A stretch of 6,398 bases of DNA, taken from Planctomycetota bacterium (GTDB lineage: Bacteria > Planctomycetota > MHYJ01 > JACPRB01). How positions within the stretch are numbered: the first letter of the stretch is position 1; each line of letters starts with the position of its first letter. The stretch covers positions 1-6,398 of the forward strand of contig JACQFK010000263.1 in assembly GCA_016200125.1 (NCBI GenBank), written 5' to 3'. Shown here one piece after another: positions 1 to 6,398 of the stretch. The position numbers were made by a program, and so were the translations under genes. The notes beneath the pieces are model-generated. The model had not been told where the DNA came from. It searched no databases and saw only the letters and a list, made by a program, of their open reading frames with translations.

Positions 1-228
1 CACGTCGCGGAGGGCGATCTCTCCCGGCGCCCGGGCCAGCACGTAGCCGCTGCCCTGGCGGCCCTGGATGAGGCCCGCCTTCAGCAGCCGGCCGAGGACG
101 GAGCGGATGCGGTCAGGCGCGAAGCGGCTCGACCGCCGGATCTCCCGGACTGTCACCGGCTTGGCCTTCCGCAGCATGAGGTGGAGCGCATGGAGCCCCA
201 GGACGGCCGCGGCCGTGAGCTCTTTCAT
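1..228 (-). CDS. Rrf2-family transcriptional regulator, N-terminal 76 residues (cut by window edge)
   Basis: The visible protein begins MKELTAAAVLGLHALHLML and has the Rrf2 N-terminal plan: a first helix with regularly spaced Leu/Ala, a winged helix-turn-helix at about residues 19-50 (VTVREIRRSSRF, then RIRSVLGRLLKAGLI), and the wing GRQGSGYVLARAPGEIALRDV, which matches the family's usual G-x-GGY-x-LAR-x-P-x-x-I-x-L pattern. Rrf2 proteins are DNA-binding dimers, many with a Cys-ligated Fe-S cluster; that part would lie beyond the window, so the cofactor and target are unknown. The ATG at 226-228 is supported by the family N-terminus. It has no Shine-Dalgarno sequence and lies 12 nt past the GC of a sigma-54 element (240-255), so the mRNA is probably leaderless. 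It is the last leftward gene in the window and appears to have its own promoter. Confidence 0.85.
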   Translation of the reverse strand, partial: MKELTAAAVLGLHALHLMLRKAKPVTVREIRRSSRFAPDRIRSVLGRLLKAGLIQGRQGSGYVLARAPGEIALRDV

Positions 229-239
229 GTCAGGAATCG

Positions 240-255
240 AGCAAGCGGTGGGCCA
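240..255 (-). promoter_or_regulatory. Sigma-54 (-24/-12) promoter of the Rrf2 gene
   Basis: The minus strand reads TGGCCCACCGCTTGCT. Against the RpoN consensus TGGCAYR-N4-TTGCW only the A of the -24 box differs. GG and GC are exactly 10 nt apart, as required. The predicted +1 is near 229, one base before the ATG. A dyad at 285-302 is centred about 64 bp upstream of that +1. Confidence 0.75.
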
Positions 256-284
256 CCCCGGAAAGGCCGCCGGAGTGGCCTGGA

Positions 285-302
285 GCGCGGAGTATTCCGC
301 GC
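285..302. promoter_or_regulatory. Dyad, likely activator-binding site for the Rrf2 promoter
   Basis: GCGCGGAGTATTCCGCGC has perfect 7-bp arms (GCGCGGA/TCCGCGC) around GTAT. It matches the dyad at 4356-4373 at 14 of 18 positions. Its centre is 38.5 bp upstream of the -24 box of the promoter at 240-255. It directly follows the stop codon of the 37-aa gene. No T-run follows on the minus strand, so it is not a standard intrinsic terminator, although it could still act as an RNA hairpin. Confidence 0.6.
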
Positions 303-303
303 G

Positions 304-417
304 CTATTGCTTGCGGGAGCGGAGCGTGTCCTCGCGGAAAGTGAGGACCATCAGGGCCAGCAGCAGGCCTCCGATGATCAGGGTGAAGAAGATCTCGGCC
401 GGTTGGCAATGAGGCAT
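304..417 (-). CDS. 37-aa single-pass membrane microprotein, unknown function
   Basis: A short reading frame of 37 residues starts MPHCQPAEIFF. It has one hydrophobic stretch at about residues 9-26 (rich in L, I, G, A and V) and a charged tail, FREDTLRSRKQ. The positive C-terminus suggests it stays in the cytoplasm, with the short N-terminus and Cys4 outside. Translation signals are good: AAGGAG lies 7 nt before the ATG, and the ATG starts one base after the TAG of the 132-aa gene, so the two are probably translationally coupled and co-transcribed. The size and topology recall small subunits or modulators of membrane complexes, but I do not recognise a family. There is no membrane enzyme next to it to suggest a partner; the only other membrane protein here is the GGDEF protein encoded upstream. 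Confidence 0.7.
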   Translation of the reverse strand: MPHCQPAEIFFTLIIGGLLLALMVLTFREDTLRSRKQ

Positions 418-418
418 C

Positions 419-817
419 CTATTTCTCCTTCCGCAGAGTTCTGCAGGCGCAGGCGGGGGCGAAGGGCTCCAGTTCCGGCAGGACGCGGTGGTCGGCCAGC
501 CCGCGGCACTCCATGCGGACGGCGTCGTAGTGCGCCAGGCTCCGGGCCAGATCGAACAGATCGAAGCCCTCGCCGACGTCCTCGATCTCTTTCAGGGAGG
601 CGGCGAGCTGTCCGGGCGTGGTGACGTAGTAGCCTCTCCGGTGGAGCAGGCGCTTGAAGCTGTTCCACATCCCGGTGAGATTGACCCCGTTGAGGCCGTG
701 GGCGTGGAGCTCGGAAGTCAGACGAGCCATGGCCGCCGCGGCCTCGGAGGGCTCCACCGCCTCCATGGCCTCCAGGACCTTGCGTTCGGGCGGAGGTGAC
801 AGACTACCGGCTTCCAT
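419..817 (-). CDS. 132-aa hypothetical protein (first gene of a sigma-54 unit)
   Basis: I do not recognise a family. The product is soluble, with no signal peptide or membrane segment. It is mostly amphipathic helix: an acidic Ala/Glu-rich start (residues about 10-40), a more conserved-looking centre (HGLNGVNLTGMWNSFKRLLH, about 40-59, then a GYYVTTPGQLAASLKEIEDV region), and a C-terminus with Cys104 and a CAC pair (Cys123, Cys125) before a basic end. GC-rich third positions and clean coupling to the 37-aa gene downstream support it as real. The start is uncertain. ATG 817 has no Shine-Dalgarno sequence but sits 13 nt past the GC of a near-perfect sigma-54 element, which would make a leaderless message. 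ATG 766 and ATG 730 are in-frame alternatives; 766 has a GGAGG, but only 2 nt away. Confidence 0.65.
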   Translation of the reverse strand: MEAGSLSPPPERKVLEAMEAVEPSEAAAAMARLTSELHAHGLNGVNLTGMWNSFKRLLHRRGYYVTTPGQLAASLKEIEDVGEGFDLFDLARSLAHYDAVRMECRGLADHRVLPELEPFAPACACRTLRKEK

Positions 818-829
818 GTATGACCAGAG

Positions 830-845
830 AGCAAACCGGGTGCCA
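830..845 (-). promoter_or_regulatory. Sigma-54 promoter of the 132-aa/37-aa unit
   Basis: The minus strand reads TGGCACCCGGTTTGCT. It matches TGGCAYR-N4-TTGCW everywhere except the R position. GG and GC are 10 nt apart. The predicted +1 is near 819, two bases before ATG 817. It lies in the 52-bp gap after the GGDEF gene, so this unit can be transcribed independently of it. Confidence 0.8.
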
Positions 846-869
846 TTGAGGAATGGGCCCGGGAGAGCG

Positions 870-1694
870 TTATTTCGCGGGCAATTCCCCGGTCGTCATG
901 GATTTCTGCGGCGGGATCCCGTAGCGGGACGTGCCCTTTTCCGCGTAGCGCTTCTTCTTGTTCTCGGCCAGGATAGCGTCCGCCCGCTCGATCAGCGCCT
1001 CGGCCGTCGCGCCGTCCTCGGGATGACGGGCGACGCCCGCGCTGGTGCCCAGGCCCGCGGCGCGCATCACGGCATCGTCCGCGCGTCCCGGAAGCGACTG
1101 CGCCGACAGGATGTCGCCGTAGGTGATCAGGAGGAACTCGTCCCCGCCGTAGCGTCCCAGGACGTCACCCTCGCGGATGATGCTCTGGAGGGCCGCCGAA
1201 GCCTTCCTCAGAACTACGTCTCCCGCCGCATGGCCCAGCGTGTCGTTGATGTACTTGAAGCCGTCCAGGTCGAAGAGCACCACCGCGAAGCGCTGCTCGA
1301 TCCGCCGGGCCCGCTGGAGGGCCTTGTGGAGCTCCTCCAGAACGTAGCGGCGGTTGTGAAGCCCGGTCAGCGAGTCCGTGGTGGCCAGGTCGGTCAGCGA
1401 CTGGATGAGCTGCGCATTGTGCTCCTCGAGCCGCTGGCGCACCGTGCCCATGGCGCCGAAGACGAGGGCGAACAGGAAGGGGTGGGCGAGGAAGAGGAAA
1501 TGGACGGGATGCTGCAGGAGGGCGTCCCAGGGAGTCCTGCCCGGAATCGCGCAGAGGCTGCAGTCCAGCGCGAGGGAGACGATCGGAACCGGGATCCCCC
1601 AGAGGAAGCCGAACCACAGGTAGGCGTTCCGCCGGAGGTCATAGGTGAAGCTCCGGCCGAAGGCCGACAGGTAGGTCCGAACCGTGTTACGCAT
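870..1694 (-). CDS. Membrane-anchored diguanylate cyclase (GGDEF)
   Basis: The enzyme would make cyclic di-GMP from two GTP at the inner membrane. Two hydrophobic helices (about residues 23-46 and 63-85) flank a short outer loop. A charged linker helix (about 86-104) follows, then a full GGDEF domain (about 105-262): DSLTGLHNRR at 107-116, the metal/substrate segment FDLDGFKYIND at 141-151, the active-site GGDEF at 183-187, and a product-inhibition I-site REGD at 174-177, exactly five residues before GGDEF. It therefore looks catalytically intact and feedback-inhibited. There is no PAS, GAF or receiver domain, so input must come through the membrane part, which has a CxxC (Cys45, Cys48). ATG 1694 has a GGAGG directly against it, too close for normal use, and lies 15 nt past a sigma-54 GC. 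The receiver-only gene ends 61 nt upstream. Confidence 0.92.
   Translation of the reverse strand: MRNTVRTYLSAFGRSFTYDLRRNAYLWFGFLWGIPVPIVSLALDCSLCAIPGRTPWDALLQHPVHFLFLAHPFLFALVFGAMGTVRQRLEEHNAQLIQSLTDLATTDSLTGLHNRRYVLEELHKALQRARRIEQRFAVVLFDLDGFKYINDTLGHAAGDVVLRKASAALQSIIREGDVLGRYGGDEFLLITYGDILSAQSLPGRADDAVMRAAGLGTSAGVARHPEDGATAEALIERADAILAENKKKRYAEKGTSRYGIPPQKSMTTGELPAK
875..892. promoter_or_regulatory. Weak dyad, candidate activator site for the 132-aa unit
   Basis: TCGCGGGCAATTCCCCGG matches 12 of 18 positions of GYGCGGARTWTTCCGCRC and holds CGGG/CCCG arms at 878-891. Its centre is 38.5 bp upstream of the -24 box at 830-845, the same distance as at the Rrf2 promoter. It overlaps the last codons of the GGDEF gene. 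The support is mainly its position. Confidence 0.4.
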
Positions 1695-1708
1695 CCTCCG
1701 ATGGGAAA

Positions 1709-1724
1709 TGCAAAAGGGATGCCA
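1709..1724 (-). promoter_or_regulatory. Sigma-54 promoter of the GGDEF gene
   Basis: The minus strand reads TGGCATCCCTTTTGCA, matching TGGCAYR-N4-TTGCW except at the R position, with correct 10-nt GG-GC spacing. The predicted +1 is near 1698, four bases before ATG 1694. It lies in the 61-nt gap behind the receiver gene. Confidence 0.8.
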
Positions 1725-1754
1725 TGCTCCGGATGATCAGGGAAGGGGGGGCGG

Positions 1755-1772
1755 GTCAGGGTTTTTCCACGG
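1755..1772. promoter_or_regulatory. Weak dyad-like site, candidate activator site for the GGDEF promoter
   Basis: GTCAGGGTTTTTCCACGG matches 12 of 18 positions of the proposed consensus, best in the GG...TTTTCC core. Its centre is 39.5 bp upstream of the -24 box, the same distance as at the Kdo hydroxylase promoter. It overlaps the end of the receiver gene. The support is mainly positional. Confidence 0.35.
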
Positions 1773-2193
1773 AGCTAAGGGTTTTTTCGGGCTGGCCCGG
1801 CAGAGTCATGAGGTGGCTGGCCAGCATGTCCTGGAGCGTCTCCATCGAAAAAGGCTTCGACAGGTAGCCGTCCGCCCGCACGCTGAAGGCCTGGCGGGGC
1901 GCGGACGCCTGGTCGTAGGCGGTCATGATGAAGACCTTGAGTTCCGGACGCGCGGCGCGGACCTGTCGGATCAGCTCGTAGCCGCTCGCCCCGGGCAGAC
2001 GGATGTCGACCAGCATGCCGTCCAGGTGCTTGATCCGATCCAGCATCCGAAGGGCCCGTTCGGCGCTTTCCGCGGTCCAGACGCGATAGGTGCTCCGGAG
2101 CGATTCGCGGATCGACCAGCGCACGAGCTTCTCGTCGTCGACGACCAGCAACCCCTTGCGCTCGCGATGGGGTCGGCCCTTCTCTGAACTCAC
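1756..2193 (-). CDS. Receiver-only response regulator (CheY-like), 145 aa
   Basis: One complete receiver domain spans about residues 14-128, with no DNA-binding or enzymatic output. Key residues are present: acidic pair Asp19-Asp20 in LLVVDDEK, phospho-acceptor Asp63 in LVDIRLPG, switch Thr91 in IMTAYD and Lys113 in LSKPF. A basic N-terminal extension and a short C-terminal tail lie outside the domain. Such proteins usually act as phosphorelay intermediates, phosphate sinks or protein-binding switches. Helix 1 (EKLVRWSIRESL) closely resembles that of the NtrC-type regulator at 6059 ([12 protein letters not shown]), which suggests the same kinase may serve both. The start is GTG, with a strong AAGGAGG 5 nt upstream. 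The preceding short gene ends inside that site, so the pair is very likely one transcript. Confidence 0.9.
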   Translation of the reverse strand: MSSEKGRPHRERKGLLVVDDEKLVRWSIRESLRSTYRVWTAESAERALRMLDRIKHLDGMLVDIRLPGASGYELIRQVRAARPELKVFIMTAYDQASAPRQAFSVRADGYLSKPFSMETLQDMLASHLMTLPGQPEKTLSSVEKP

Positions 2194-2198
2194 AGGAT

Positions 2199-2205
2199 CC
2201 TCCTT
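2199..2205 (-). promoter_or_regulatory. Strong ribosome-binding site fixing the GTG start of the receiver gene
   Basis: The minus strand reads AAGGAGG, then 5 nt, then GTG at 2193-2191. The stop codon TAA of the upstream short gene (2206-2204) overlaps it (TAAGGAGG), consistent with reinitiation or coupling. Confidence 0.8.
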
Positions 2206-2410
2206 AGGCTTCGGGATCGATCCGGAACTCTCCCTGCGGCCAGGGGTGGGGAGCCAGCAGATACGGCACCTCGTTCCGGCGCTTCGGCAGGGGCAGCGGC
2301 CGGGGCTCGGCGGCCTCGGGAAGCGAGGGTTTCCAGAACACCCGAGTGGTCTCCTCTCCCCGGGGTTTCCTCCGGGGTTCGGGTTCCAGGAGTCCAGGTC
2401 CGCTTCTCAT
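2204..2410 (-). CDS. 68-aa proline-rich small protein, unknown function
   Basis: I recognise no family. The frame starts MRSGPGLLEPEPRRKP. It is rich in Pro, Arg and Glu, with few hydrophobic runs and no membrane segment, and looks largely extended or disordered. The C-terminal half (about residue 24 on: VFWKPSLPEA, later EVPYLLAPHPWPQGEF) has mostly G/C-ending codons and aromatic residues, like a real binding motif region. Evidence that it is expressed: its ATG lies 12 nt past the GC of a perfect sigma-54 consensus, and its stop is 10 nt before the receiver start. An in-frame ATG at 2461 would give 85 aa and overlaps the Usp stop (TGATG), but it lacks a ribosome site and would read through the promoter. 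I prefer 2410. It could be a partner of the receiver it is encoded with. Confidence 0.55.
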   Translation of the reverse strand: MRSGPGLLEPEPRRKPRGEETTRVFWKPSLPEAAEPRPLPLPKRRNEVPYLLAPHPWPQGEFRIDPEA

Positions 2411-2421
2411 GGCTATCCATG

Positions 2422-2437
2422 AGCAAGGGCTGTGCCA
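2422..2437 (-). promoter_or_regulatory. Perfect-consensus sigma-54 promoter of the short-protein/receiver unit
   Basis: The minus strand reads TGGCACAGCCCTTGCT and fits TGGCAYR-N4-TTGCW at every defined position. The predicted +1 is near 2411, one base before ATG 2410. It lies in the 50-bp gap after the Usp stop codon. A 7-bp inverted repeat (CTCATGG-ctat-CCATGAG, 2406-2423) spans the predicted start site and start codon. Confidence 0.85.
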
Positions 2438-2460
2438 CGGCCGGGGCCGTCCCGCCCCCA

Positions 2461-3375
2461 TCAGACCGCGGCGCGCGGCGGGGTATTCTCCGCAGATTGG
2501 GCGATTTTCTCCGGCCTTTGAGAAAACAGACGGTCTGTTTTCTCAAGGGCGGGGTGGCGGACTACGAGGAGGGGGACGGAGGCGGCGCGGAGGACCTTGG
2601 CGGCCACGCTGCCGAAGACCCAGCGCGAAGGCCCGCTGCGGCCGTGCGTCGTCATCGCGATTAGATCGATCTCCTTCTCCTCCGCCGCCTTCAGAATCTC
2701 CTCGGCGGGATCGCCCTTGCGATGGTCGAAGGTGGCGGGAATGCAGGCCTCCCGCAGGATCTGGTCCGCCGCCTTCATGGTCTCGTCGAGGGACTCCCAG
2801 CGGCCGTCATAGGGGGTCGGCTCGGTCACATGAAGCAGGCTGACGTGGGCGTCCACGGGGCGGGCCAACTCGAGGACCGGACCGAGCGCGCCCAGGGACA
2901 GGCGGCTTCCGTCCAGGGGGACGAGGAAGGTCCGGACCGGGAGCGATTCCAGTTTCCCACGGGACATGGCCGGCGGGAAGGACCGCGCCACGAGGACCGG
3001 CAGCGGGCTCGTCTGGAGCACCTTCTCGGCGACGCTGCCCATCACCCAGCGCGCGGCCCCCGTCCTGCCGTGCGTAGCCAGCGCGATGAGGGAGGCCCGC
3101 TCCGACGCGGCGGCATCCAGGATCGTCTCCGCCGCTCCTCCGCGGCGCAGGATGAAGGTCGCGGGGTATCCGTCGTTGGTGAGCTGGAAGGAGACTCTCC
3201 GGAGATAGTTCTCGATGTCATCGTCGCCTCCGAGGGGGACGAAGGGGACGGCGTGGAGCAGGAGGATCTGCGATTCGTGGCGCCGGAGGATCCGGCGGAG
3301 CTGGGACAGGATGACTTCCCCGTTCTCCGATCCGTCCAGCGGGACGAGGACGCGGCTCAGCAGCGGCTCGGTCAT
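2461..3375 (-). CDS. Tandem-domain universal stress protein (UspA superfamily)
   Basis: The protein has 304 aa with two Usp domains, about residues 6-131 and 147-273, each opening with a beta-strand ending VPLDGS. Usp proteins are soluble, often ATP-binding, and induced by stress or growth arrest. The nucleotide loop G-2x-G-9x-G(S/T) is kept in both copies (G103...G113-S114; G245...G255-S256), except that the first Gly is Ala100 and Thr242, common variants. The domains end at PVLVAR and PLLVVR as usual. An extra 31-residue tail follows, encoded by the palindrome and promoter-region DNA of the next unit, so it is probably not a functional domain. ATG 3375 has AAGGAG 7 nt upstream and overlaps the stop of the Kdo hydroxylase gene by 4 nt (ATGA), so both are on one transcript. 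Confidence 0.92.
   Translation of the reverse strand: MTEPLLSRVLVPLDGSENGEVILSQLRRILRRHESQILLLHAVPFVPLGGDDDIENYLRRVSFQLTNDGYPATFILRRGGAAETILDAAASERASLIALATHGRTGAARWVMGSVAEKVLQTSPLPVLVARSFPPAMSRGKLESLPVRTFLVPLDGSRLSLGALGPVLELARPVDAHVSLLHVTEPTPYDGRWESLDETMKAADQILREACIPATFDHRKGDPAEEILKAAEEKEIDLIAMTTHGRSGPSRWVFGSVAAKVLRAASVPLLVVRHPALEKTDRLFSQRPEKIAQSAENTPPRAAV
2476..2493. promoter_or_regulatory. Dyad, candidate activator site for the short-protein/receiver promoter
   Basis: CGGCGGGGTATTCTCCGC contains GCGG/CCGC arms around an 8-bp centre, 2 bp wider than the related dyads at 285-302 and 4356-4373. With its left half aligned it matches the proposed consensus at 13 of 18 positions. The centre is about 74 bp upstream of the predicted +1, roughly one helical turn further than the other sites. 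It lies inside the last codons of the Usp gene. Confidence 0.4.
2514..2550. repeat. 37-bp near-perfect palindrome in the 3' end of the Usp gene
   Basis: The arms 2514-2531 and 2533-2550 are complementary around a single central G (2532), with one mismatch (2517/2547). The core is GAGAAAACAGAC-G-GTCTGTTTTCTC. It is more AT-rich than its surroundings. It encodes about residues 276-288 of the Usp protein, beyond the end of the second Usp domain. No T-run follows on either strand, so it is not a classic intrinsic terminator. Its centre is about 121 bp upstream of the short-gene +1, a normal distance for a sigma-54 enhancer site. Other readings are a repressor operator or a mobile palindromic repeat. 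Confidence 0.8.
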
Positions 3376-4286
3376 GGCGGCACTCCTTGAAGCAGAGAGT
3401 AGGGCGTCAGCGCGCTGCGCCGGCAGTTCGCCCGCGGGACGATGAAGGTGTCGATGAAGGCGTGCTGCCCGGAGACGCAGGCGTGGGTGACCATGTCGGT
3501 GAAGACCATCCAGGCGGAGCCCGGCGGGAAGGCGAAGCGGCGATGGCCGTCCGGGGACTCCTGGAATTCCGGCGAGTCCTTCATGAAGTTGTGGAAGCGC
3601 CGCATGAGCCGGTCGTAGGGCGAGGTGTCCGCCAGCTTCGCCATCGGGAAGCCGGCGCGGGCGGCGGCGTCGAGCAGGCGGCTCCAGGTCCGGTTGCTCC
3701 AGCCCTCCGAAAGGTCGCGGCCTCCCCCCGCGGGAGGCGTCACCCCGGCGGCGCTTCCGTAGCGGCGGTAGACCTCGGGGAAGGTCCCCTTGGTGATCCA
3801 GACCCGGTCCTCGCTGGGGTGGGCGTTCATGAAGAAGCGCAGGATCCGGTTGCCGTGCGTCGCCCCGTAGGCCCCGGCGTCGACGTGGACCCGTTCATTG
3901 GAGGCATGGGCGGAGAGGGCGCGGCCCTTCTCCTGCAGGGGGCGGAAGCTCGAGGTCGCGACCGTCCATCCGCGCGCCAGCGGCTCTATCGTCCGCGTCA
4001 GGAACGCCCGGACCTGCGCGTTGTGGTCCATCAGGATGCGTGCGGCCTTCTCGCGGACGGCGCGGCCTCCGGCGATGCCGACCACGCGTCCGACCTCGGG
4101 ATGGAAGCTGATGTTCTTTCTTCGCAGATGGCGCGGCAGTTCATTCCGCAGGAACTCCAGATCCGGGGGCGAGGGGAAGGGCAGCGGGGATTCGGGGAAG
4201 TGCACGATGGCGCCCTTCTCGAGCGCGTCCGGGACCGCCTCCGGCGTGGCCGAAGCCAGTTCCTGCGAGGAGTAGGATTGGATCAT
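3372..4286 (-). CDS. kdoO: Kdo hydroxylase (Fe(II)/2-oxoglutarate dioxygenase)
   Basis: Enzymes of this family hydroxylate the outer 3-deoxy-D-manno-octulosonic acid of the LPS inner core, turning Kdo into Ko, and use Fe(II), O2 and 2-oxoglutarate; the family is known from Burkholderia and Yersinia. This 304-aa protein has the usual length. Features recalled from the family: RRKNISFHPEVGRVVG (55-70), the block NERVHVDAGAYGATHGNRI (130-148) with the iron-binding HxD (His134, Asp136), and the C-terminal VTHACVSGQHAFIDTF (266-281) carrying the likely third iron ligand His268. There is no signal peptide, consistent with work on the cytoplasmic side. ATG 4286 is chosen because AAAGGGG (4291-4297) and a sigma-54 element precede it; the frame stays open further upstream only as an antisense shadow of the kinase gene. 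It is the first gene of a pair with Usp. Confidence 0.82.
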   Translation of the reverse strand: MIQSYSSQELASATPEAVPDALEKGAIVHFPESPLPFPSPPDLEFLRNELPRHLRRKNISFHPEVGRVVGIAGGRAVREKAARILMDHNAQVRAFLTRTIEPLARGWTVATSSFRPLQEKGRALSAHASNERVHVDAGAYGATHGNRILRFFMNAHPSEDRVWITKGTFPEVYRRYGSAAGVTPPAGGGRDLSEGWSNRTWSRLLDAAARAGFPMAKLADTSPYDRLMRRFHNFMKDSPEFQESPDGHRRFAFPPGSAWMVFTDMVTHACVSGQHAFIDTFIVPRANCRRSALTPYSLLQGVPP

Positions 4287-4309
4287 GGGACCCCTTTCAG
4301 CGACAATAA

Positions 4310-4325
4310 TGCAAACAGGAGGCCA
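4310..4325 (-). promoter_or_regulatory. Sigma-54 promoter of the Kdo hydroxylase/Usp unit
   Basis: The minus strand reads TGGCCTCCTGTTTGCA. It differs from TGGCAYR-N4-TTGCW at the A and R positions and has intact TGGC and TTGCA with 10-nt GG-GC spacing. The predicted +1 is near 4299, leaving about 13 nt of leader that just holds the AAAGGGG ribosome site. This is the only strong unit here with a normal leader. Confidence 0.75.
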
Positions 4326-4355: not shown

Positions 4356-4373
4356 GTGCGGAATTTTCCGCAC
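4356..4373. promoter_or_regulatory. Dyad, likely activator site in the divergent control region
   Basis: GTGCGGAATTTTCCGCAC has perfect 8-bp arms (GTGCGGAA/TTCCGCAC) around TT. Its centre is about 65 bp upstream of the Kdo hydroxylase +1 and about 95 bp upstream of the predicted kinase +1, so it could serve both directions. It is the best-formed copy of the motif shared with 285-302 and 4420-4437. Confidence 0.65.
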
Positions 4374-4419: not shown

Positions 4420-4437
4420 GCGCGGAATTTGCCGGGT
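4420..4437. promoter_or_regulatory. Degenerate dyad next to the kinase promoter
   Basis: GCGCGGAATTTGCCGGGT matches GYGCGGARTWTTCCGCRC at 15 of 18 positions, with an intact left half and a decayed right half. It overlaps the -24 side of the sigma-54-like element at 4434-4449. A protein bound here would tend to block rather than activate that promoter, which suggests negative autoregulation of the kinase/regulator pair (inference). Confidence 0.45.
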
Positions 4438-4460: not shown

Positions 4461-6062
4461 GTGAATGCGAACCCGCTGTCGTTCCAGTCGCCGGGAACGG
4501 TGGTTCCCGAGCATGCGCAGGTCCAGCTGCTGGAGGCCATCACCCGGAAGATCAACCTGGGGGCCTCCCTGGAGGAGACCTTCGAACTCATCTACGAGAG
4601 GCTGCACGCCTTCGTCCCTTACAACCGCATCGCGGTCGCCCTGACGGACGAGGCGCGGGAGCGGCTGTACATCATCGCGGCGAAGTCCGACGGCAAGGTG
4701 GTCCTGGGGCGGGGCTACTCGGGCGTGATCGCCGGGTCGAGCCTCGAGCCGCTGATCCGCGGGGGCAAGATCCGCGTCATCAACGACCTGCAGGACTACC
4801 TGGAGAAGAAGCCCGCGAGCGATTCCACGAGGCTGATCGTCCGCGAGGGCATGAAATCCAGCCTGACGCTGCCGCTCCTGATCGAGGGCAAGCCGGTCGG
4901 GGTCATGTTCTTCTCCAGCCGGGCCGCGGGCGTCTACCGTCCGGAGCACGAGGACTTCCTGCGCAACATCGTGGGTCACATGTCGATCGCGGTGGAGCGC
5001 GCCCGGCTGGTGGACGGTCTGCGCGAGCGGACCGAATTCCTGGAGAACATCCTGCAGAGCTCGCTCGACGGGATCGTCGTCGTGGACGGCCAGAACCGGA
5101 TCAAGACTTGGAACGAGGGGGCGCGGCGGATCTTCGGCTACTCGGCCCAGGAGGCGATCGGCCAGCCCTACGAACTCCTGCTGGCGGAGGAGGACCGGAG
5201 CGGCCCCGAGGCGAGGCGGATCCAGGAGGCCGTCGAGAAGAACGGGTTCCTGCGCCGCTGCGAGTGCCTGCGGCGGAACCGGGACGGGCGCCGCCTGGTG
5301 GTGGAGATCTCGGCGACGCTCCTTAAGGACAAGAAGGGCCGCCCGATCGGCCGCTCCTGCATCACGCGGGACGTCACGGACGTCAAGGCGATGCAGCAGG
5401 AGCTGGTGCGGACGCAGAGCCTGGCCGCGGTGGGCGAGATGGCCGCCACGGTCGCGCACGAGATCAAGAATCCGCTGGCGGGCATCAGCGGGGCGATCCA
5501 GGTCCTGGCGGAAGGGATGCCGAAGCAGGACCGCCGGCGCGTGATCGTCGGCGAGATCCTCGACCAGGTGAAGCGCCTCGACACGACGGTGAGGGATCTC
5601 CTGAACTTCGCCCGGCCCATCACGCCGACCCGGCAGGTCCTCGATCTGGCCGAGTCGATCTCGAGCGCCTGGAAGATGCTGGCGCCGCAGTCGGAGGCGA
5701 AAGCTGTGCGCTTCTCGCTGGAAGGCGGCCCGGGCGCGGTGGTCTCCGCCGATCCGCAGCTGCTCCGCCAGGTGTGGGTGAACCTCTTCCAGAACTCGAT
5801 CGAGGCGATGCCGAAGGGCGGCGAGCTCCTGGCCCGCGTGAGCGGGGGCAAGCCGGTCCGCGTGGAGATCCGCGACAGCGGGAACGGCGTCGATGCGTCG
5901 GCGGTGGGGAACATCTGGCGGCCCTTCTTCACCACGAAGACCCGGGGGACGGGCCTCGGGCTTCCCATCGTCAAGAAGATCATCGAAGCCCACGGCGGCC
6001 GGATCTGGTGCGAAAGCGAGCCCCTCAAGAGAACTTCTTTTTTCGTGGAGATTCCGCAATGA
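4461..6062 (+). CDS. Soluble GAF-PAS sensor histidine kinase
   Basis: The protein has 533 aa and no membrane segment or signal peptide, so it senses a cytoplasmic cue. Domains in order: GAF about 23-182, PAS about 190-308 ([19 protein letters not shown] and [11 protein letters not shown] are typical), a HisKA dimerisation domain about 318-386 with phospho-accepting His333 in VAHEIKNPL, and an ATPase domain about 395-533 with N box NLFQNSIEA (Asn445), G1 box RDSGNG (471-476), F box FFTTK (489-493) and G2 box GTGLGL (496-501). It looks fully active and belongs to the NtrB-like type. No Cys/His cluster marks a cofactor in the GAF or PAS. The start is uncertain: GTG 4461 lacks a ribosome site and sits 12 nt past a sigma-54-like GC; GTG 4500, in the loop of a 7-bp hairpin, is the alternative. 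It overlaps the regulator gene by 4 nt. Confidence 0.92.
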
Positions 6063-6398
6063 ACATCCTCGTGGTCGACGACGAGAAGCTGATCCGCTGG
6101 TCCCTGAAGGAGAGGCTCACCCGCGAGGGCCACAGCGTGACCGAGGCCGAGGACGGCAAGTCGGCCGCGGCGGCGCTGGAGGCCGAGCTTCCGGATCTGG
6201 TGCTCCTGGACATGAAGCTTCCCGACACGGACGGGCTGACGATCCTGCGCTCGATCGTCGAGCACGCCCCGGAGCTCCCGGTGATCATCATCACGGCCTA
6301 TTCGACCGTCGACACGGCGGTCGAGGCGATGAGGCTGGGGGCCTACGACTACATCTCCAAGCCCTTCGACATGGACGAGCTGACGATCACGGTGAAGC
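6059..6398 (+). CDS. NtrC-type response regulator, receiver domain (cut by window edge)
   Basis: The 113 visible residues form an almost complete receiver: Asp7-Asp8 in LVVDDEK, phospho-acceptor Asp51 in LLDMKLPD, Thr79 in IIITAYS and Lys101 in ISKPFD. The stretch [27 protein letters not shown] is typical of sigma-54 activators of the NtrC/ZraR class, so an AAA+ domain with a GAFTGA loop and a Fis-type DNA-binding end are expected past the edge; they are not visible here. The ATG overlaps the kinase TGA (ATGA), showing tight co-expression, and makes this its cognate regulator. Given the sigma-54 promoters in the window, it is the obvious candidate activator of the neighbouring leftward units (inference). 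Confidence 0.9.

Follow-up and report, generated by a model that had tools for sequence, protein, structure and literature searches.

A 6,398-nucleotide (nt) contig of a Planctomycetota bacterium (JACQFK010000263.1, assembly GCA_016200125.1), referred to here as the window and analysed over its whole length, carries five sigma-54 promoter sites, each placed ahead of a group of leftward genes. These sites probably belong to one local sigma-54 regulon with an NtrC-type activator that binds a shared palindrome and with four units that give leaderless mRNAs, a design that would recur in part of the class of a related genome. In the proposed mechanism, the GAF-PAS histidine kinase encoded in the window would phosphorylate the adjacent NtrC-type regulator, which in its phosphorylated form probably binds GCGGAA-N2-TTCCGC and so switches on the five promoters. 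For four of the five units, the start point of sigma-54 polymerase would coincide with the start codon or fall no more than about 3 nt from it, and the first gene of those units would be translated from a leaderless mRNA, the downstream genes retaining their Shine-Dalgarno sequences. The initial annotation had already proposed an RpoN regulon packed around its own two-component system; both the leaderless spacing and the palindrome had been overlooked in it.

A pattern search of both strands of the window located five exact copies of TGGC-N7-TTGC (Table 1); every one is on the minus strand, the plus strand having none. All of them have GG at -24 and GC at -12 at the fixed spacing of the sigma-54 core, and the distance from each site to the first start codon of its leftward unit was 12 to 24 nt. 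The search agrees with the initial annotation, which had placed one site ahead of each leftward unit and had seen no plus-strand copy by eye, except that each of its left site coordinates was one base too low. Its low chance number (about 0.2) was close to what 200 dinucleotide-preserving shuffles of the window gave (mean 0.14 matches, maximum 2), and none of the shuffles reached five. Judging from gene order, each of the following groups would be one transcription unit: Kdo hydroxylase and universal stress protein (Usp); an open reading frame (ORF) of 68 amino acids (aa) and a receiver; GGDEF; a 132-aa ORF and a 37-aa membrane-type protein; and Rrf2. For comparison, genome G589 was found via the Kdo hydroxylase (3 of 392 genomes matched), and its class (23 genomes) was then used as the related set.

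Upstream of the promoters, the palindrome GCGGAA-N2-TTCCGC was identified at four of the five sites, with a weak copy at the fifth; binding by the activator is putative. Because it is common to four promoters at a near-constant distance, one common regulator is suggested. When the motif was taken from the Kdo promoter alone, one random draw in 200,000 attained the summed score of the other four promoters at 38-40 nt (P = 5e-6), and none did when a range of 48-50 nt, added after seeing the data, was also allowed. The argument rests on position, not on the 9/12 scores. The 6.4-kb window has two scores of at least 11, compared with four over 661 kb of G550 DNA and a single one over 222 kb of G520. 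An additional copy between the Kdo hydroxylase and the kinase is a possible autoregulation site. Among homologous loci, the Rrf2 gene of L020 (G669 contig 515) has a 9/12 copy at 38 nt; the 132-aa homologues of L017 (G550) and L020, as well as the L017 Rrf2 gene, have copies at other distances. No copy was seen at the L020 GGDEF homologue, where the best score was 6/12.

It is possible, if doubtful, that the palindrome serves another regulator, such as one of Rrf2 or MarR type, which acts on top of sigma-54 control, and that the neighbouring NtrC-type protein acts elsewhere. Its distance from the promoters is short and near constant (38-39 nt plus one of 49), the window itself has an Rrf2 gene, and the 132-aa homologues of L018 and L019 have MarR genes nearby. 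However, three extra palindrome-like stretches in the spacer between the Kdo hydroxylase and the kinase adjoin the operon of the NtrC-type regulator, and on the G694 contig that holds a 132-aa homologue, an 11/12 copy stands before a histidine kinase gene, at 38 nt before a sigma-54 site with a gap of 13 nt (L167).

Some of the other parts of an RpoN regulon were seen in the window and others in relatives. The NtrC-type regulator reported next door by the initial annotation is present as an NtrC-like receiver after the GAF-PAS kinase; the contig ends after this receiver, before any AAA+ domain. The receiver scored best with NtrC and AtoC models and missed all curated cut-offs, as expected for a fragment. 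The G694 contig with the 132-aa homologue (L019) also encodes, about 3-6 kb away from that gene, a histidine kinase and an NtrC-type regulator, the latter with a receiver, PF00158, a Fis-type helix-turn-helix and a GAFTGA sequence; no orthology to the window regulator is assumed. The gene rpoN (PF04552) was present in all 14 genomes tested from the class. Together with the common palindrome, these observations support the RpoN-regulon proposal.

Transcription from sigma-54 promoters starts about 12 nt past the GC element. Given gaps of 12-15 nt, the predicted leader of four of the five mRNAs is 0 to about 3 nt, and these four units should be leaderless sigma-54 mRNAs. A recognition sequence 8-13 nt upstream of the start has been given for Campylobacter jejuni (PMC3847290, excerpt). 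None of the five first genes in the window has a GGAG, GAGG or AGGA core at usable spacing; AAAGGGG precedes the Kdo ATG, the GGAGG of the GGDEF gene directly abuts its ATG, and no usable Shine-Dalgarno sequence is present at the four close-set starts. A core precedes all four downstream genes (Usp, receiver, 37-aa protein and response regulator). The choice of start codons is supported by conservation of the first residue in two families. In an alignment of 18 members of the 132-aa family, 15 start at the position used in the window (14 with Met, one with Val), two others are longer and have Met at that position, and one begins later. Four of eight relatives of the 68-aa ORF are 65-70 aa long and share its first Met. 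One longer 68-aa relative (P0201) reads WHRPC-SSAG-M, which, as judged from the protein, would correspond to a translated sigma-54 promoter 12 nt before the ATG, and a member of the 132-aa family (P0029) reads WPDVC-GLSD-M. The promoter-ATG arrangement is not universal, since no such signature was found in three other long 68-aa relatives (P0200, P0202 and P0204).

The gap between promoter and start codon was then counted in related genomes using the pattern TGGCAY-N5-TTGC-N(0-30)-ATG, with the reversed pattern as a control and an expected count that is flat over the 31 gaps. The pattern outnumbered its control in G669 (35:1), G694 (19:0), G589 (18:1), G577 (24:3) and G661 (7:1), with counts of 5:2 in G535, 5:1 in G504, 4:1 in G600 and 3:2 in G642. 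In six genomes pooled (G669, G550, G694, G577, G589 and G520), 37 of 131 ATGs were located at 12-14 nt, where 12.7 were expected (P = 1.6e-9); distinct sites gave 36 of 108, and P was at most 3.4e-6 when any one genome was left out. Gaps of 12-15 nt were singly in excess in G669 (14/35, P = 5.7e-5), G550 (12/29, P = 1.3e-4) and G694 (8/19, P = 0.0015). A broader pattern in three genomes gave 31 rows at 12-14 nt among the 150 matches listed, compared with 14.5 expected. Shine-Dalgarno cores in the relatives were present at 2/46 starts with gaps of 11-15 nt, 4/25 with 16-20, 8/17 with 21-25 and 6/16 with 26-30. C stood directly before the ATG in 26 of 37 cases at gaps of 12-14 nt versus 17 of 46 at 18-30, in keeping with a pyrimidine at -1 and A at +1. 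Leadered and leaderless sites were mixed in 670 kb of G550.

We retrieved 40 regions around gaps of 12-15 nt, which hold 42 such ATGs; 32 of these open frames of at least 60 aa (31 genes, one counted twice), and the GC content at third codon positions (GC3) was at least 0.70 in 31 of the 32. Of the 29 frames scanned, 20 had a Pfam match at E 0.001 or better, L185 lying below its cut-off. They include PilZ proteins (2), anti-sigma-type ATPases (2), a histidine kinase, a receiver, Usp, a ClpB-like protein, FliE, a Ser/Thr kinase, rhodanese, ferredoxin and cytochrome c554. On the basis of these results, the leaderless sigma-54 design appears to recur in several genomes, that is, in part of the class. 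A short frame of another kind, MKNK(R/H)... with (S/R)RSVRxDHWRFCPLP, was common to two distant genomes (L187 594-875 in G577 and L193 in G550) behind sigma-54 sites with gaps of 15 and 13 nt, respectively; judging by its low GC3, it may be a conserved RNA or leader instead of a protein. Controls comprised 150 listed rows from 9 of 27 genomes (G401 in part), mostly, as far as can be told, outside the phylum, and among these listed matches no peak was observed (16 at gaps of 12-14 nt vs 14.5 expected). One control genome from another, small phylum (G390) had 7 of its 53 listed rows at a gap of 12 nt, and leaderless sigma-54 promoters may also exist elsewhere.

The 132-aa family was present in 4 of the 23 genomes of the class. 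In L020, exact sigma-54 sites precede the GGDEF homologue (58% identity; GTG at 13 nt), the Rrf2 gene (ATG at 15 nt) and the 132-aa homologue (ATG at 23 nt); in L017, the gaps were 25 nt for the 132-aa gene and 17 nt for Rrf2.

Several observations weigh against the regulon with leaderless units as proposed here. First, the Kdo unit is leadered, and the gaps in L020 and L017 rule out strict conservation of the 13-nt gap of the 132-aa gene. Second, the excess at gaps of 12-15 nt was not significant singly in G577 (6/24, P = 0.08), G589 (4/18, P = 0.19) or G520 (0/6), five further genomes of the class were without a peak (12-14 nt: 3 of 24 rows, 2.3 expected), and 10 of the 42 close-set ATGs open frames shorter than 60 aa. 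Third, palindrome scores of at least 9/12 occur at 11 places in the window and are not rare alone, and the 49-nt distance was accepted post hoc. Finally, a fixed and close site is not known to be typical of sigma-54 activators.

Some of these points would also suit an ordinary leadered sigma-54 regulon beside its activator, in which the starts were misjudged and translation begins further downstream, behind normal leaders. The Kdo unit and the two longer gaps of the 132-aa relatives favour this explanation, and since 23 of 30 sigma-54 units in Clostridioides difficile lie beside an activator gene (PMC7438776, excerpt), such clustering is itself ordinary. Nevertheless, we consider the explanation unlikely, given the 12-14-nt peak and its scarcity of Shine-Dalgarno cores, the conserved first residue of the 132-aa family and the four 68-aa relatives that start at the same Met. 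That the five sites are chance occurrences of the pattern in GC-rich DNA is very improbable: the pattern has just eight fixed bases, and in G520 the ATG-linked pattern and its reversed control were about equal (31 vs 29), but all five sites stand ahead of first genes, and this explanation is already contradicted by the shuffles and by the reversed-pattern counts, above all in G669, G694, G589 and G577.

Leaderlessness did not appear to be special to sigma-54 in this lineage. Free-standing gene starts were picked by a simple rule in the retrieved DNA of G550 and G520. A Shine-Dalgarno core was present at 24% of 270 such starts in G550 (background 11%) and at 32% of 96 in G520 (background 6-15%), and TANNNT boxes crowd 6-13 nt before the ATG in G550 and weakly in G520. 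On account of this low core use and crowding, leaderless starts from ordinary promoters look common in G550. Operon-internal genes carried a core more frequently than did first genes (28/60 vs 62/226 in G550 and 9/23 vs 23/78 in G520). Low Shine-Dalgarno use has been noted in Planctomycetes, with a base bias possibly arising from leaderless mRNA or ribosomal protein S1 (PMC5397173, excerpt). The Kdo hydroxylase gene of G589 (L010, about 1485-1501) has no sigma-54 site, and its ATG follows a TACAAT box at a distance of 9 nt, which suggests a leaderless start from an ordinary promoter.

Table 1. Promoter sites, palindrome copies and genes of the 6,398-nt window
Feature	Position	Strand	Remark
Sigma-54 site before Rrf2	241..255	-	ATG 12 nt past TTGC
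Sigma-54 site before 132-aa ORF	831..845	-	ATG 13 nt past TTGC
Sigma-54 site before GGDEF	1710..1724	-	ATG 15 nt past TTGC
Sigma-54 site before 68-aa ORF	2423..2437	-	ATG 12 nt past TTGC
Sigma-54 site before Kdo hydroxylase	4311..4325	-	ATG 24 nt past TTGC; AAAGGGG ahead of ATG; leadered
Palindrome, 11/12	287..300	.	Rrf2; centre 38 nt upstream of -24 element
Palindrome, 9/12	877..890	.	132-aa ORF; centre 38 nt upstream of -24 element
Weak palindrome, 7/12	1757..1770	.	GGDEF; centre 39 nt upstream of -24 element
Palindrome, 9/12	2480..2493	.	68-aa ORF; centre 49 nt upstream; within 3' end of Usp frame
Palindrome GCGGAA-N2-TTCCGC, 12/12	4358..4371	.	Kdo; centre 39 nt upstream of -24 element
Further palindrome copy, 10/12	4422..4435	.	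Between Kdo and kinase
Rrf2 family regulator	1..228	-	Cut by contig end
37-aa membrane-type protein	304..417	-	Shine-Dalgarno core present
132-aa protein, unnamed family	419..817	-	76 relatives
GGDEF protein	870..1694	-	Membrane-type region at N-terminus
Stand-alone receiver domain	1756..2193	-	Shine-Dalgarno core present
68-aa ORF, first in its unit	2204..2410	-	8 relatives beyond the window's own copy
Universal stress protein, two Usp domains	2461..3375	-	Shine-Dalgarno core present
Kdo hydroxylase family protein (PF11004)	3372..4286	-	First gene of its unit
GAF-PAS histidine kinase	4461..6062	+	Right-hand neighbour of the leftward units
NtrC-like receiver, start of presumed activator	6059..6398	+	Cut by contig end

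Further examination of the genes of the window revealed the following. The 132-aa family had no Pfam or NCBIfam match, and its sole organism-named relative (P0037) comes from a metagenome-assembled genome of 'Planctomycetota bacterium'. The best-scoring organism-named relative of the Kdo hydroxylase (P0103, 67%) is also named 'Planctomycetota bacterium', and Myxococcota members were at 55-57%. The kinase search returned distant relatives only, viral contigs searched for relatives yielded none, and an Rfam scan of the window gave nothing above cut-offs. The 37-aa protein after the 132-aa gene is of single-helix type; by eye, a similar small membrane protein apparently lies between the 132-aa homologue and Rrf2 on the G669 contig. 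The N-terminal membrane-type stretch of the GGDEF protein resembles that of neighbouring histidine kinases in L018 (11544-13468) and L020 (3812-5681), the common part being RxxYxWFGxLWGxPVPxFS...HPxxFxFLxHPxLFxxVFGAMGTVR, and is perhaps an unnamed sensor module. A long near-perfect palindrome, TTGAGAAAACAGAC-G-GTCTGTTTTCTCAA, was observed at 2518-2546, in the 3' end of the Usp frame past the Usp domain; terminator, regulator site or both are possible readings. The surroundings of the 132-aa homologues (L017-L020) contain genes for hemerythrin-domain proteins, for regulators of the MarR and Rrf2 types and for cytochrome oxidase. From these neighbours, oxygen, nitric oxide or redox is a reasonable guess, no more, for the signal of the regulon.

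The window was also compared with known systems. Like the SigL units of C. difficile (PMC7438776, excerpt), it has the TGGC-N7-TTGC core and clustering by a two-component system with an NtrC-like receiver. It departs from usual sigma-54 clusters in that transcription of four of its five units is expected to begin at the start codon, and in that the shared palindrome stands unusually near the promoters and at unusually even distances. Leaderless genes with a -10 box next to the ORF have been described in Deinococcus-Thermus (PMC12340547), Bradyrhizobium japonicum (PMC4842269) and C. jejuni (PMC3847290; all excerpts). As in those genes, a promoter element is fixed a few bases before the ATG with no Shine-Dalgarno sequence between, whereas the element here is the sigma-54 -24/-12 type. 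The two-component system is similar to those of the NtrC family (NtrC, AtoC and ZraR) in the models that its receiver matched best, and the full domain order is present in the L019 regulator; the system of the window differs in that the window protein is a fragment and that the targets would be Kdo hydroxylase, Usp, GGDEF, Rrf2 and unnamed proteins. No leaderless sigma-54 transcript was described in the literature matches listed, which were drawn from excerpts of nine papers (PMC3616915, PMC4842269, PMC5397173, PMC10783764, PMC12340547, PMC5243855, PMC3847290, PMC12403871 and PMC7438776), supplementary tables being outside the scope. Both -24/-12 promoters and leaderless -10 genes are known, and what appears to be new is the leaderless arrangement of sigma-54 promoters.

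With regard to the wider lineage, we incline slightly to the view that leaderless sigma-54 promoters are a design rule in these planctomycetes, by which an ATP-driven activator releases transcripts that open with the start codon, turning a signal into protein with no need for a Shine-Dalgarno interaction. The rule would apply to many genes that are not linked to one another (kinases, receivers, PilZ, a ClpB-like protein, Usp and anti-sigma-like ATPases). If true, this would be a tightly off, activator-driven class of promoters coupled to leaderless translation, and the promoter would also flag the real start codons of these uncultivated bacteria, along with small genes that gene calling has missed.

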